Positions 10,000 through 14,174 of a DNA stretch of 32,562 bases are shown here, piece by piece. The number at the start of each line of letters is the position of its first letter. Position 1 is the stretch's first letter. The notes under the pieces were generated by a model. That model had not been told where the DNA came from, did no database searches, and saw only the letters and a list, made by a program, of their open reading frames with translations. A program made the translations under genes and the position numbers. The stretch is taken from NCBI GenBank assembly GCA_902798815.1, contig CADBYH010000018.1, forward strand, positions 1-32,562, read 5' to 3'. This DNA is from an uncultured Erysipelotrichaceae bacterium. GTDB lineage: Bacteria; Bacillota_I; Bacilli_A; RF39; UBA660.

Positions 10000-10947
10000 A
10001 TGGTAAGTAGCGGAACAGTTAATAGTGATGCATCATCACTAAGTAACTACTTAAGTAGTTATAAATCAGAATTGAGTGGATTAGATGGTTCATGGAAAGG
10101 AACATCACATGACAGCATTATATCTAAAGCAGATGCGTTTGTTGGTGAATATACTGCAATAGTATCACAAATGAATAGTTTTGCCAGTGCTTGCGATGCT
10201 TATGAGAAATATAAAGCATTAAAAGATCAAATATCTCAAACCGAAGCAAATAGAGCAAGTGCTTCAGATGATCAAAAACAATCATATGACTCAGCACTGA
10301 GTGATATGAGAAGTGAACTAAGTAGATATAAAGCGCAGATAGAGAGTTATTTGAGTGAAGCATCATCACCAACATTAACAGCAACAGCATCAAATGCCGG
10401 ATCATCTGGATCATCAGGTAAATCAGGAAAATCTGGTTCCGGAGGAGGATCAGGAAGTAACCAAGGAATTATTGATTCAATAATGGAAGAAGTTGGAAAT
10501 GAAATATCAGACTATCCAGGAGTTGGATTCCATGATGGACAATGGTGTGCAGATTATGTATCTTACACATTACAAAAGAATGGTTATGATATAGAATGGT
10601 CATCTCTAGCAGGAGACGGAGATGGATGTATAATGCAATCAATAAGAGATAAAGGAGGAGTTGTTCACTTAGATCAAGGAGCTTCATATAGAGGAAGTTC
10701 ATATACAGAATCAGATGAATATGATCTTGATTACTCTCCACAAGCAGGAGACGTTGTTGTATTTGACTTTGACCATGATGGAGTAAATGATCATACTGGA
10801 TTTGTTATTAAAGATAATGGAGATGGAACAGTATCAACAATTGAAGGAAATACAACAAGTGATTCCTCAGGAAGTTGTGTTAATACTCAAGTAAGAGATA
10901 GAAGTGATATATATGGATACGCCACTCCAGTTAAAAATGGCGATTAA
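10000..10947 (+). CDS. WXG100-like protein fused to a CHAP amidase/endopeptidase
   Basis: A 315-residue protein with no signal peptide. Residues 1-120 are an Ala/Ser-rich helical hairpin with the turn motif SWKG (Trp32, Gly34), like ESX/WXG100 cargo of type VII secretion. Residues about 130-155 are a Gly/Ser/Lys linker. Residues about 160-313 form a CHAP domain: Cys183 in QWCADYVSYTL, His265 in NDHTGFVI and the EGN motif at 282-284 supply the catalytic triad, with an Asp-rich loop at 256-264 that may bind calcium. The family cleaves peptidoglycan cross-links or the amide bond. The WXG module probably replaces a signal peptide for export. The ribosome site is weak (GGTG). It heads a run of WXG100 genes; a TATAAT lies at 9958-9963 without a clear -35. 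Confidence 0.85.
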   Translation: MVSSGTVNSDASSLSNYLSSYKSELSGLDGSWKGTSHDSIISKADAFVGEYTAIVSQMNSFASACDAYEKYKALKDQISQTEANRASASDDQKQSYDSALSDMRSELSRYKAQIESYLSEASSPTLTATASNAGSSGSSGKSGKSGSGGGSGSNQGIIDSIMEEVGNEISDYPGVGFHDGQWCADYVSYTLQKNGYDIEWSSLAGDGDGCIMQSIRDKGGVVHLDQGASYRGSSYTESDEYDLDYSPQAGDVVVFDFDHDGVNDHTGFVIKDNGDGTVSTIEGNTTSDSSGSCVNTQVRDRSDIYGYATPVKNGD

Positions 10948-10967
10948 TAAACTAAGGAGGATTTAAT

Positions 10968-12014
10968 ATGGCAGTATTTATGATACAAACTGAAACACTA
11001 GATTCAGCATCATCAGCACTTAACAGTATTGCTTCTCAAATAGATCAGTTAAGTAGTAGTGTAAATGGATATGACACAAGTTGTGAAGATGGTTTTGATT
11101 TTGCATCACCAAAAAGTACAATTGCTTCAAATATTGAAGCATGTGCAACAAAAGTAAAAAACACTTCAACAGTATTAAGTCAAGTATCACAATCTCACAC
11201 AGCATTACAAAATAGTATTTCTTTTGATGATCCTACAGGATCAGGAAAATCAGGAAAATCAGGTGGAGGATCAAAATCTGGATCATCTGGATCATCCGGA
11301 GGCGGAGGTTACTCTGGTGGTGGAGGATACTCTGGAGGCGGAGGATATTCCGGTGGAGGTTACTCTAGTGGAGGTTCATATGCTGGTGTAGCAGCAACTG
11401 CAGGATTAACTGCGGGAACAGAGAAAACAGTAGAACTTAAAAAAGAAGAAAAATTAGAAGCTGAAGAAATAAAACCAGATACATTCAAAAAAGTAGGGTA
11501 TGTTCATCTTGCTGAAGATAAATTGAGTGAAGAATCTAAAGCATTATTTGCTGAAGAAAATGTTGAATATGATGAAAATGGATATGCTAAAATAGGTGAT
11601 TATTATGTCATATCAGCAGATAAATCAGTTGGACAGGTTGGAGACGTAATAGAATTTACAAGTAAAGATGGAACAAAAAGTGAATGTGTTGTTGGTATAA
11701 GTACAAATAGTGAAAAATATAAAGAAACAATAAATTATGTTATATCTAGTGAAAAATCTCAAGATTTTAAACCAATAGAGTCAACACAAAACTTACTTAA
11801 AAATACAGAAAGCATTAAAAACCAGGGAAATTATAAACTTCTTGATCAAGGAATAAGAGAAGCTCAAGTAGTAGAAGGACCAGCAGAGACAAGTACAGCT
11901 GAACTTGGAACAGTTTCAGAAAGTACTACATCTAATCAGGATATTATCGGAATGATTGAAGATAAAGTAGATGGAATGAAATCTGAAACCATAGCAGAAG
12001 GAAGTGAGGTATAA
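10968..12014 (+). CDS. WXG100-like protein with Gly/Ser repeat linker and beta-rich tail
   Basis: A 348-residue protein. Residues 1-90 are a Ser/Ala-rich helical hairpin like its neighbours but without a Trp at the turn. Residues about 92-140 are low complexity, with repeated GGGGYSGG units. Residues about 185-255 contain YDENGYAKIGDYYVISADKSVGQVGDVIEF...SECVVGIS, a beta-barrel-like domain resembling one attached to Firmicute wall hydrolases; its function is not known. The remainder is acidic and Thr/Ser-rich. No signal peptide is seen. A strong AAGGAGG site precedes the ATG, and the next gene starts three bases after its stop. It may be a structural or adhesive secreted component. Confidence 0.7.
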   Translation: MAVFMIQTETLDSASSALNSIASQIDQLSSSVNGYDTSCEDGFDFASPKSTIASNIEACATKVKNTSTVLSQVSQSHTALQNSISFDDPTGSGKSGKSGGGSKSGSSGSSGGGGYSGGGGYSGGGGYSGGGYSSGGSYAGVAATAGLTAGTEKTVELKKEEKLEAEEIKPDTFKKVGYVHLAEDKLSEESKALFAEENVEYDENGYAKIGDYYVISADKSVGQVGDVIEFTSKDGTKSECVVGISTNSEKYKETINYVISSEKSQDFKPIESTQNLLKNTESIKNQGNYKLLDQGIREAQVVEGPAETSTAELGTVSESTTSNQDIIGMIEDKVDGMKSETIAEGSEV

Positions 12015-12017
12015 TAT

Positions 12018-12305
12018 ATGGCAAAATATGTATGTGATTTTGCTGCTGTTACAGCAATAGGTGATGAAGTATGCGAAATATCATCAAAAATAACTTCAGC
12101 AGTTAATAGTTATTCCTCAAGTATTGAAAGTGATTTATCTTCATGGAGCGGTGTTGCAAAACAATCATTTGAATCAACAAACTCATCACAAATCGCAAAA
12201 GCTAAAGAAGATGCAAAATATATTAATACTGTAGGAGAATATATAAAAAGTGCAGCAAAGAGTATAGAGGCACTAGAATCAGAACTTGCAGGATTATCAA
12301 TATAG
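12018..12305 (+). CDS. WXG100 family protein (ESX-like)
   Basis: A 95-residue all-helical protein with WSG (Trp43, Gly45) at the turn between two helices of about 38 and 45 residues: the classical size and layout of WXG100/EsxA proteins, which are exported as helical-hairpin dimers by type VII secretion. Three bases separate it from the upstream gene, so they are co-translated. Ribosome site GTGAGGT. Whether it is a chaperone-like partner for the fused hydrolase or an independent substrate cannot be told. Confidence 0.85.
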   Translation: MAKYVCDFAAVTAIGDEVCEISSKITSAVNSYSSSIESDLSSWSGVAKQSFESTNSSQIAKAKEDAKYINTVGEYIKSAAKSIEALESELAGLSI

Positions 12306-12327
12306 GTGTAAAGTTTTATCAAATAGG

Positions 12328-12357
12328 TTGTAAAACACATAATTGATGTTGTAAAAT
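12328..12357 (+). promoter_or_regulatory. Possible internal promoter in the WXG100 cluster
   Basis: TTGTAA (12328-12333), 18 bases, TAAAAT (12352-12357). The same two hexamers occur before the lysozyme-fusion gene at 13098-13126. Confidence 0.4.
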
Positions 12358-12382
12358 AAAAATATAGATAGGAGGATTGTGT

Positions 12383-12679
12383 ATGTCTGGATTACATGCT
12401 GACACAGCAGCAATGAATACAAATGGAAAGGAAACAGTTGCAAACGCTGAATATTTTTCAAATGAATTATCAAGTCTACGTAATAATGTAGAAGGATTAA
12501 TGACAATTTGGAGAGGATTATCTGCAAATGAGTTTTCAAAATCATATGAAGAACAAGCTCATAACTTACAATTATTTCAACAATTAATCAATGAATTAGG
12601 TGAAGGTATAAGCAGAAGTGCAAATATCTTAAATAAAACAGAAGAAGATAATGCAGCAGCAGGATCAAGCTTATTTTAA
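12383..12679 (+). CDS. WXG100 family protein (ESX-like)
   Basis: A 98-residue WXG100 protein with WRG at Trp43-Gly45 between two helices. The ATG at 12383 (GGAGG seven bases upstream) is preferred over an in-frame TTG at 12377. The second helix includes the hydrophobic LQLFQQLINELGEGI stripe expected for packing against the first. The C-terminus is acidic and Ala-rich. It is separated from the preceding gene by about 77 bases that may hold a promoter, and is followed after 19 bases by another family member. Confidence 0.85.
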   Translation: MSGLHADTAAMNTNGKETVANAEYFSNELSSLRNNVEGLMTIWRGLSANEFSKSYEEQAHNLQLFQQLINELGEGISRSANILNKTEEDNAAAGSSLF

Positions 12680-12698
12680 TAAAGGAGGTTATTGATTT

Positions 12699-12998
12699 AT
12701 GAATGAATTTGAAGAGAAAGATTATGCAGGAGCAAGAAGTTATGCCGATGCAGTTAAAACAAATGCAGATAATATAATGGGAATATTCAATGACATTGAT
12801 GGTGTTATGAATAGTTTATATAGTAATAACTGGCAAAGTGCAGGAGCAGAAAGTGCTCAAGCAAGATATAATGAAATTCGTAAAAATTATGAAATATTCT
12901 ACGATAAAGTAGTTGCAATGAAAAATCATATTTATAATGTTACTGCAGCAAACGAAGAAGCAGATGCAGCAGCAAGTCAAACAATTGCAAGCATTTAA
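12699..12998 (+). CDS. WXG100-like protein with WQS variant turn
   Basis: A 99-residue member with the turn motif NNWQSAGAES: Trp45 is present but the usual glycine is Ser, with A-G-A following. Otherwise it has the same two-helix layout, with an acidic start and an Ala/Glu-rich end. A strong AAAGGAGG site precedes the ATG. It ends the first WXG100 transcript, just before a clear terminator. It may pair with the 98-residue protein upstream, as EsxA/EsxB-type pairs are commonly adjacent. Confidence 0.8.
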   Translation: MNEFEEKDYAGARSYADAVKTNADNIMGIFNDIDGVMNSLYSNNWQSAGAESAQARYNEIRKNYEIFYDKVVAMKNHIYNVTAANEEADAAASQTIASI

Positions 12999-13018
12999 TC
13001 GTTATCCATGTATTTATT

Positions 13019-13045
13019 AAGAATGACTATAAAGTCATTCTTTTT
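13019..13045 (+). terminator. Intrinsic terminator ending the first WXG100 operon
   Basis: Perfect ten-pair stem AAGAATGACT / AGTCATTCTT with an ATAA loop and a T run. Confidence 0.85.
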
Positions 13046-13097
13046 ATATCAAAAAATAAAAAAGAGTAAAATAAATGACAATTTGAATTATAAGTAT

Positions 13098-13126
13098 TTG
13101 TAATAGTTTATATCATATGATAAAAT
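13098..13126 (+). promoter_or_regulatory. Promoter of the lysozyme-fusion gene
   Basis: TTGTAA (13098-13103), a 17-base spacer, TAAAAT (13121-13126). Confidence 0.55.
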
Positions 13127-13152
13127 TACTATATGATAGTAGGAGTGATTTT

Positions 13153-13959
13153 ATGAGCGAATATAAAGTGTCTGATTATGGGATTTTTAGTGATGCCGTT
13201 GGAACTACAAATAAATTTAATGAACAATTAAGTACAAGTAAAGAAGATATTAATAGTTGTTCAACTAAATTAAATAATGAATCAATATTTATGGGACCTG
13301 CATGTGATGAAGCGATAAAAGTATGTAAAAGTGGGTGCTCAAAATTAGAGTTATTAAGCGGTAATTATACAACAATGGGAGATTTCTTAAAAACAACAGC
13401 ATCTAATTATCAAGCAGGAGATGATAAAGCAAAAACAACAATTTTATCAATTAACTCTGGAGGAAAAGTTGAAACTACAACAGGATCATCAGCATCAACT
13501 GCAAATTTCTCAGGAAGTAATAATCAGGAAAAATTATATAATTATCTTTCTTCTCAAGGATTTAATGATGCTGCTATTTGTGGTATTTTAGCAAATATTC
13601 AACATGAGTCAGGTTTTGACACAACAGCAGTAGGAGATGGTGGGACATCATATGGTATTTGTCAATGGCATGAAGGAAGATGGGATAGTATGAAATCATA
13701 CTGTGAAGATAATAATTTAGATCCAGATTCAATAGAAGGACAAGGACAATACTTAGTAAATGAATTAAAGAATAATTATCCTGGTGTATATGAGACATTA
13801 CAAAATGTTCCAAATACTTCAGAAGGGGCTTATGAAGCAGCTTATAAATGGACAACTGACTATGAAATACCTGCTGATAAATATAATCAAGGTGATTACA
13901 GAGGAACTACAGCATCAACTGAATATTGGGAAAAATATGGAAATAAAAACAGTGAATAA
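13153..13959 (+). CDS. WXG100-like protein fused to a phage-tail-type lysozyme domain
   Basis: A 268-residue protein without signal peptide. Residues 1-95 are a helical hairpin like its neighbours, but the turn reads IFMGPACDEAI, so Phe46-Met-Gly48 replaces WxG. After a Thr/Ser-rich linker, residues about 124-255 match the phage tail lysozyme domain (PF18013): LYNYLSSQGFNDAAICGILANIQHESGFD, with the likely catalytic Glu152 in HES, then GGTSYGICQWHEGRW. Such domains cleave the glycan strand of peptidoglycan. The ATG at 13153 has AGGAG seven bases upstream; an upstream in-frame start at 13117 overlaps the promoter. With the CHAP fusion it makes a glycan-plus-peptide wall-cutting pair. Confidence 0.85.
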   Translation: MSEYKVSDYGIFSDAVGTTNKFNEQLSTSKEDINSCSTKLNNESIFMGPACDEAIKVCKSGCSKLELLSGNYTTMGDFLKTTASNYQAGDDKAKTTILSINSGGKVETTTGSSASTANFSGSNNQEKLYNYLSSQGFNDAAICGILANIQHESGFDTTAVGDGGTSYGICQWHEGRWDSMKSYCEDNNLDPDSIEGQGQYLVNELKNNYPGVYETLQNVPNTSEGAYEAAYKWTTDYEIPADKYNQGDYRGTTASTEYWEKYGNKNSE

Positions 13960-13986
13960 AAAAGGTGATTTAAATCATCTTTTTAT
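13958..13986 (+). terminator. Intrinsic terminator overlapping the lysozyme-fusion stop codon
   Basis: AAAAAGGTGA-TTTA-AATCATCTTTTT-type hairpin with one G-U pair, ending in five T. It begins in the stop codon. Confidence 0.75.
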
Positions 13987-14006: not shown

Positions 14007-14174
14007 ATGAAAAAGAAAAAATGTAATTGCTCTCCAACTTGTACATGCGGATGCCAAGAAGGAAAAGAATGTACTTGTAACGAGAAAGAATGTAATTGCA
14101 CATGCGAAGATAACTGCACATATGATGAAAAATGTGATTGTGGATGTAACCAAAAAAAAGACAAAAAAAAATAG
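14007..14174 (+). CDS. Small cysteine-rich, metallothionein-like protein
   Basis: A 55-residue protein with 14 cysteines (a quarter of all residues) in repeating CxC and CxCxC clusters: CNC at 6-8, CTCGC at 12-16, CTC at 22-24, CNCTC at 29-33, C37 and CDCGC at 43-47. The spacers are acidic, and both ends are lysine-rich. GGAGG lies five bases before the ATG. Absence of a signal peptide and hydrophobic residues, together with the paired cysteines, points to a soluble cytoplasmic metal or thiolate-cluster protein similar in design to metallothioneins, though no known family is matched with certainty. Its stop codon lies inside a bidirectional terminator shared with the convergent gene. Confidence 0.75.
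   Translation: MKKKKCNCSPTCTCGCQEGKECTCNEKECNCTCEDNCTYDEKCDCGCNQKKDKKK

Follow-up and report, generated by a model that had tools for sequence, protein, structure and literature searches.

A candidate type VII secretion cassette with modular, mostly wall-cutting cargo in a genus of uncultured Erysipelotrichaceae

Results

Two wall hydrolases and three WXG100 proteins in tandem

The window analysed here is the whole of a 32,562-nucleotide stretch (contig CADBYH010000018.1, positions 1 to 32,562) from the genome of an uncultured Erysipelotrichaceae bacterium (assembly GCA_902798815.1; 1.45 Mb in 52 contigs, 75.7% complete). Its region 10000-13986 carries six tandem genes, which we call A, C, W1, W2, W3 and B in their order along the + strand (Table 1) and which probably form one copy of a genus-wide cassette for the cargo of a type VII secretion system (T7SS). 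A sequence-only reading of the window had assigned WXG100-like helical hairpins to all six, with two of them ending in different peptidoglycan hydrolases and three being single-domain ESX-like proteins. Both enzymes are as it described, down to the catalytic residues it named: A ends in a CHAP domain (PF05257, 6e-11) with Cys183 and His265 intact, and B in a phage-tail lysozyme (PF18013, 2e-33) with Glu152, numbered from 13153. The same genome holds a second, more distant CHAP-like match (G000:C6:39665-39853).

The single-domain genes were also identified correctly, as W1, W2 and W3 all score above the Pfam cut-off for WXG100 (PF06013, 27.3 bits). The W1 copy in the window reads W-S-G at the WXG position, and W3 has the invariant Trp and Gly with the spacing W-x-x-x-G. 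For the other three genes the hairpin assignment fell short at the profile level: the N-terminus of A scores 19.2 bits, that of B itself matches nothing in the library and has no WxG, and that of C gave no WXG100 match in the Pfam search. Helical periodicity and a low-scoring profile match (39% probability) are a weak pointer towards a WXG100-like domain at the start of C.

Table 1. Features of the cassette region of the window
Feature	Position	Strand	Description
A (type A cargo)	10000..10947	+	WXG-type carrier (roughly residues 1-130, with WKG at positions 32-34), then a Gly/Ser linker and a CHAP amidase/peptidase at the C-terminus
C	10968..12014	+	Small helical N-terminal domain without WxG; Gly/Ser-rich repeat; conserved C-terminal domain
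W1	12018..12305	+	Single-domain WXG100; invariant Trp43; 27.6 bits
W2	12383..12679	+	Single-domain WXG100; invariant W-x-G; 30.0 bits; start chosen by Shine-Dalgarno sequence
W3	12699..12998	+	Single-domain WXG100; 32.0 bits
Terminator-like hairpin	13019..13042	+	10-bp stem followed by a T run, between W3 and B; consensus match only
B (type B cargo)	13153..13959	+	Carrier with FMGP turn and YxxxD; Ser/Thr-rich linker; phage-tail-type lysozyme; Shine-Dalgarno start

Two carriers with exchangeable enzymes across the genus

When the CHAP protein was searched against 39 congener genomes, 30 gave matches, up to eight per genome, most of which align over the first 130-150 residues only and then run into different C-termini. 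The lysozyme protein found matches in 26 genomes, many of them likewise restricted to the N-terminus. From the fetched congener loci we gathered 63 proteins with a type A carrier and as many with a type B carrier, none of which begins with a signal-peptide-like hydrophobic stretch (0/126). The arrangement that the sequence-only reading had singled out as unusual, helical carriers in place of signal peptides on one glycan-cutting and one peptide-cutting enzyme, is a genus-wide pattern, and these carrier-hydrolase fusions support its broader proposal of T7SS-type cargo aimed at the cell wall.

Carrier A is invariant at W32, G34, S36, A64, Y68, I114 and L118 among 58 sequences. A single-sequence AlphaFold model of it is all-helical (residues 7-26, 36-86 and 90-121), with a mean predicted local distance difference test (pLDDT) score of 78 and WKG in the first turn. 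Since the carrier-A profile gave only weak matches in other genera of the family, the carrier appears to be essentially confined to this genus. Carrier B has invariant G46 and P47, with Y7, F10, Y84 and D88 at 90% or more, and its Y84-x-x-x-D88 has the form of a YxxxD/E export motif. Hydrophobic periodicity near 100 degrees flanks FMGP on both sides, which supports two predicted helices around this turn. Among the N-termini of the B family, 24 of 59 match TIGR03930 and 14 of 59 match PF06013 at E<=0.01.

Single-linkage clustering sorted the C-termini into 22 classes, which by their Pfam matches appear to be mostly wall hydrolases. Type A proteins carry NlpC/P60, C39-like, M23, CHAP, esterase/S9-like, NAGPA and M15 domains and, in one case, a lysozyme; type B proteins carry phage-tail lysozyme, glucosaminidase, C39-like, NAGPA, CHAP, M23 and NlpC/P60 domains. 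Seven of the 22 clusters (C39-like, NlpC/P60, esterase, NAGPA, M23, CHAP and SleB-like) occur on both carriers, with cross-carrier identities of up to 73%, which we take as direct evidence that enzyme domains have been exchanged between them. The CHAP domain in the window shares 45% identity with a CHAP domain that another species has on a type B carrier. Catalytic residues are kept in all members of both enzyme classes found in the window (6/6 CHAP and 17/17 lysozyme).

Peptide-cutting and glycan-cutting domains, with C39-like domains scored as peptide-cutting on family membership, stand at 45:1 on type A and 16:30 on type B (nominal p 3e-11, uncorrected for relatedness and sampling and with the type B set seeded by the lysozyme protein). 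With the lysozymes left out, the ratios are 45:0 and 16:13. Type A would thus carry mostly peptide cutters and type B mostly glycan cutters. At three loci (L094, L156 and L175) the gene after that of a type B NAGPA protein encodes a membrane protein of some 200 aa. These three membrane proteins are related, have three transmembrane segments by prediction and may be rhomboid-like.

Conserved partners, gene order and genomic site

Searched across the genus, the Gly/Ser protein encoded by gene C gave matches in 31 of the 39 genomes, and our survey of neighbours found C directly after a type A gene in 19 cases. In congener G147, separate protein searches and profiles identified a natural fusion of the two, a single 445-aa protein with an A domain followed by a C domain. 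This adjacency and the fusion make the A and C hairpins, and with them gene C and type A cargo, likely partners. At its C-terminal end the fused protein (L113:4886-6223) has a hydrophobic segment whose tail is rich in Lys.

The neighbourhood search that had been proposed for the WXG-CHAP and WXG-lysozyme pair showed that the order A(1-3)-C-W1-W2-W3-B(1-2) recurs, whole or in part, across the genus. In congener G172 a cassette ordered A-B-C-W1-W2-W3 leads straight into essC-yukD on the same strand (L147). In many congeners the cassette is bordered on one side by a MurJ/polysaccharide-flippase-like gene and on the other by a convergent FemAB pair. The interval between these borders could be classed in the 26 of 39 genomes where both genes lie on one contig, with lengths taken from match coordinates: it spans 2.3-7.1 kb in 16 genomes and 42-86 bp in 10. 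The cassette fills it in the 16 genomes, whereas in the 10 it is empty, and it has the look of a home, or a site of insertion, for a cassette that can move or be lost. In the genome of the window the gap is empty (75 bp, on contig C7) and the cassette is on C18. Five of the ten empty-gap genomes, this one and G172 included, carry cassette genes elsewhere; the other five gave no match to the A carrier protein.

An EssC-centred machine elsewhere in the genome

Neither EssC nor EssB is encoded in the window, as the sequence-only reading noted, but where EssC is concerned its description of the locus as lacking a secretion machine does not hold for the genome. The search it recommended for EssC-type ATPases, a complete lack of which it had named as grounds for refutation, found two, of 1548 and 1525 aa, each with an FHA and two FtsK domains and scoring 931 and 1013 bits against the TIGR03928 equivalog cut-off of 778; they share 39% identity. 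Directly 3' of each essC is a gene of 85-90 aa with no Pfam match, which is YukD/EsaB-like as judged by its size, position and similar C-terminal motif. At the EssC1 locus this gene is followed by six more small genes (97-159 aa), of which some give low-scoring WXG/ESAT-like matches; they are a possible second and separate WXG100 cluster. The EssC1 locus (G000 contig C14, L009:7326-14374) lies near murD-like, FemAB and secG-like genes. At the EssC2 locus (L010:8175-13463) two short genes follow the YukD-like gene, and at L148, L149 and L163 EssC2 and its YukD-like gene are usually succeeded by two very short genes (71-75 aa).

EssC exceeds the cut-off in 37 of the 39 genomes. By contrast with positive B. 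subtilis controls, no genome has an EssB over the PF10140 cut-off (0/39) or an EsaA over that of TIGR03929 (0/39, with a few weaker matches below). No EssA candidate was noticed beside either essC, although no search aimed at EssA was made. As EssB and EsaA fall below their cut-offs throughout, the secretion system is, on its gene content, EssC-centred and reduced. Three genomes that are each at least 91% complete (G154, G164 and G177) contain cargo with an EssC of the EssC2 type only, which makes EssC2 the more likely exporter. EssC2 is also retained in cargo-free genomes.

Immunity genes and direction of action

The sequence-only reading saw no immunity-like gene, and this extends to the genus: among the neighbours of cargo genes we found no recurring immunity class, and these neighbours are mostly other cargo, W or C genes, or unrelated genes. 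FemAB, whose role might have resembled that of lysostaphin immunity, was considered as an immunity function dedicated to the cassette and rejected: it is present in all 39 genomes, the cargo-less ones included, and the flippase and Fem genes are adjacent even where there is no cassette. It may still have a general protective role. The arrangement most like that of a toxin with its immunity gene is at L162 and L164, where triplets of type B genes with unassigned C-terminal domains (cluster 12) are followed by mutually similar membrane proteins.

Nine genomes, four of them at least 90% complete, have no match to either carrier protein and yet keep EssC-type genes (as fragments only in one). Judged by this distribution, the hydrolases are dispensable for running the T7SS, which weakens the suggestion of local wall opening during secretion that had been made for this locus; it also favours cargo enzymes that probably act outward. 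With a copy number that varies and enzyme kinds that have been exchanged, these enzymes resemble outward-acting weapons or digestive enzymes.

Gene boundaries and neighbouring sequence

A Shine-Dalgarno-like sequence precedes most of the six genes, with none at 10000. Longer open reading frames would begin W2 at 12377 and B at 13117, but these starts are less likely, as 12383 and 13153 fit better to Shine-Dalgarno sequences. Given the terminator-like hairpin between W3 and B, B may have a transcript separate from that of the genes on the W3 side. Just 3' of the lysozyme gene, at 14007-14174 of the window (+ strand), is a short Cys-rich open reading frame (MKKKKCNCSPTCTCGCQEGK...), metallothionein-like in appearance.

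Discussion

A proposed modular cargo set for a reduced type VII system

We consider it probable that the genome holds, at this locus, a copy of a genus-wide cassette for the modular cargo of a reduced, EssC-centred T7SS, with enzymes that are mostly wall-cutting and act outside the producer. In this proposal, which draws on comparative sequence analysis, carriers A (WxG) and B (FMGP plus YxxxD) are fused through a flexible linker to interchangeable cell-wall enzymes. Each carrier would have a small helical partner encoded in the cassette, which for A is probably C and for B one of W1-W3. Such pairs may rebuild the two-part WXG plus YxxxD signal known from other T7SS, with its halves on two proteins: B has YxxxD without WxG, whereas A and W2 have WxG. 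EssC would then pump the paired complex across the membrane. Of the released enzymes, those of type B would mostly cleave glycan strands and those of type A mostly peptide stems or bridges. Their targets would most likely be walls or envelope polymers outside the producer, for competition or lysis for nutrients, rather than obstacles to making room for the machine.

A bolder version of this proposal is a two-channel export code, with carrier A mainly for peptide cutters and carrier B for glycan cutters, the WXG half (A, W1-W3) and the YxxxD half (B) of the signal on different cassette proteins, and joint delivery of one glycan-cutting and one peptide-cutting enzyme through an EssC system that has neither EssB nor EsaA. 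We regard this as speculative and rather unlikely. If true, it would describe a T7SS dedicated to exporting pairs of wall-lytic enzymes.

Several results weigh against T7SS-dependent export of outward-acting cargo. The Foldseek search with the carrier A model returned generic helical matches only and no significant T7SS match. The single-sequence AlphaFold model of carrier B, with a pLDDT of 36, is of useless confidence, leaving carriers B and C without fold evidence, and homology of carrier B to carrier A or W1, which we considered, received no support from profile comparison. The failure of EssB and EsaA to reach their cut-offs in any genome counts on the same side, and so does the absence of immunity genes, which antibacterial effectors usually have. 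In congener G147, whose genome is 94% complete, there are cargo-like genes but no match to EssC; a 1535-aa open reading frame beside one of these genes was tried as a divergent EssC and rejected, as it has no similarity to EssC.

Alternative explanations

The hydrolases might instead be turned on the producer itself, exported for passage of the T7SS or for remodelling of its own wall, much like EssH but delivered by the T7SS. A CHAP hydrolase, EssH, is required for T7SSb secretion (PMC13059805), the system here lacks EsaA, the proposed wall-spanning conduit, there are no immunity genes, and the genomic site of the cassette is flanked by MurJ-like flippase and FemAB genes. We nevertheless hold this to be unlikely in view of the nine carrier-less genomes that keep EssC-type genes, a copy number that runs from 0 to about 8 with enzyme kinds that vary by species, unlike a housekeeping part, and esterase and NAGPA domains that are ill-suited to simple wall opening. 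The absence of immunity genes tells in the opposite direction for the usual antibacterial polymorphic toxins, which kill kin on contact and come with immunity. A constant N-terminus with a variable C-terminus, linked Lap-like small proteins and a patchy distribution do match T7SS toxins (PMC10765036, PMC11217815), yet no immunity gene recurs among the neighbours, FemAB, which might confer immunity by modifying bridges, is found even in cargo-less genomes, and there is no LXG domain match, so that we would assign this explanation a similarly low likelihood.

Secreted digestive or host-directed hydrolases, acting on mucus, plant or host glycans or scavenged wall fragments and merely using the T7SS for export, would account for the esterase/S9-like, C39-like and NAGPA domains that accompany the murein hydrolases. 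This too seems doubtful, as murein hydrolases are the largest assignable classes and pairs of lysozyme and peptidase recur within one cassette. Far less probable than any of these is that the lysins in the window are leftovers or of phage origin, that the WXG100 genes next to them have nothing to do with them and that there is no functional export unit. The lysozyme is of phage-tail type (PF18013), and its closest solved relative by sequence is a phage 'Morphogenesis protein 1', but cassette order and carrier fusion are kept across the genus and the catalytic residues are intact in every member of both enzyme classes.

Comparison with known systems

Our search of the open-access literature, with subscription papers outside its scope, found no description of a WXG100-hydrolase cargo family (CHAP, glucosaminidase, lysozyme or peptidoglycan hydrolase). 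The LXG toxins of T7SSb with their Lap1/Lap2 partners (TelC, TelD, EsaD) share with the cassette a helical N-terminal targeting domain, a variable C-terminal enzyme, adjacent small helical partner genes and an EssC-type ATPase in the genome. Unlike them, the cassette has two distinct carriers, each of about 95-135 aa, a repertoire of mostly wall hydrolases and no systematic immunity genes, and the Pfam results for the window and cargo proteins contain no LXG family. Export of LXG toxins needs the FxxxD motif of Lap1 proteins, which is related to YxxxD (PMC9600955), whereas here the B carrier itself bears YxxxD. Mycobacterial PE/PPE proteins and EspB, with their bipartite WXG plus YxxxD/E signal, are similar in that WxG and YxxxD belong to separate helical hairpins, YxxxD being close to the end of its own; we noticed no PE/PPE or EspG genes in the loci we read, however, and the cassette carriers are fused to murein hydrolases.

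T7SS types without EssB and EsaA have been described by Garrett et al. 2024 (PMC11217815). These systems (T7SSc-T7SSj and others, B. anthracis type) resemble the one here in their FHA-bearing EssC and WXG100 proteins as well as in those absences, and they have a small ubiquitin-like gene to which the YukD-like genes here may correspond. They differ in that we noticed no kinase, phosphatase or FHA-DUF6382 genes beside essC, by eye and partly with Pfam, and their described substrates are LXG, RHS and lipase proteins, unlike the cassette cargo. Polymorphic toxins with NlpC/P60 or glucosaminidase-type domains share the wall-cutting C-terminal modules but usually have immunity proteins; Zhang et al. 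2012 linked NlpC/P60 toxin domains to delivery by the type VI secretion system, PVC and TcdB/TcaC, not WXG (PMC3482391).

The cassette family provides natural domain swaps with which a minimal T7SS export signal can be tested, and it bears both on the working of EssC in the absence of EssB and EsaA and on the purpose of T7SS effectors that come without immunity genes. A parallel to A is EssH of S. aureus, likewise a peptidoglycan hydrolase of the CHAP kind with a link to type VII secretion, which is needed for T7SSb secretion but is exported by Sec and is not a substrate (PMC13059805). Where EssH has its Sec signal peptide, the CHAP protein of the cassette has a WXG carrier, and its CHAP domain is one of a large set of enzymes that can replace one another. 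Whereas the known T7SS-tied murein hydrolase is a Sec-exported helper, the hydrolases here appear to be the cargo itself.

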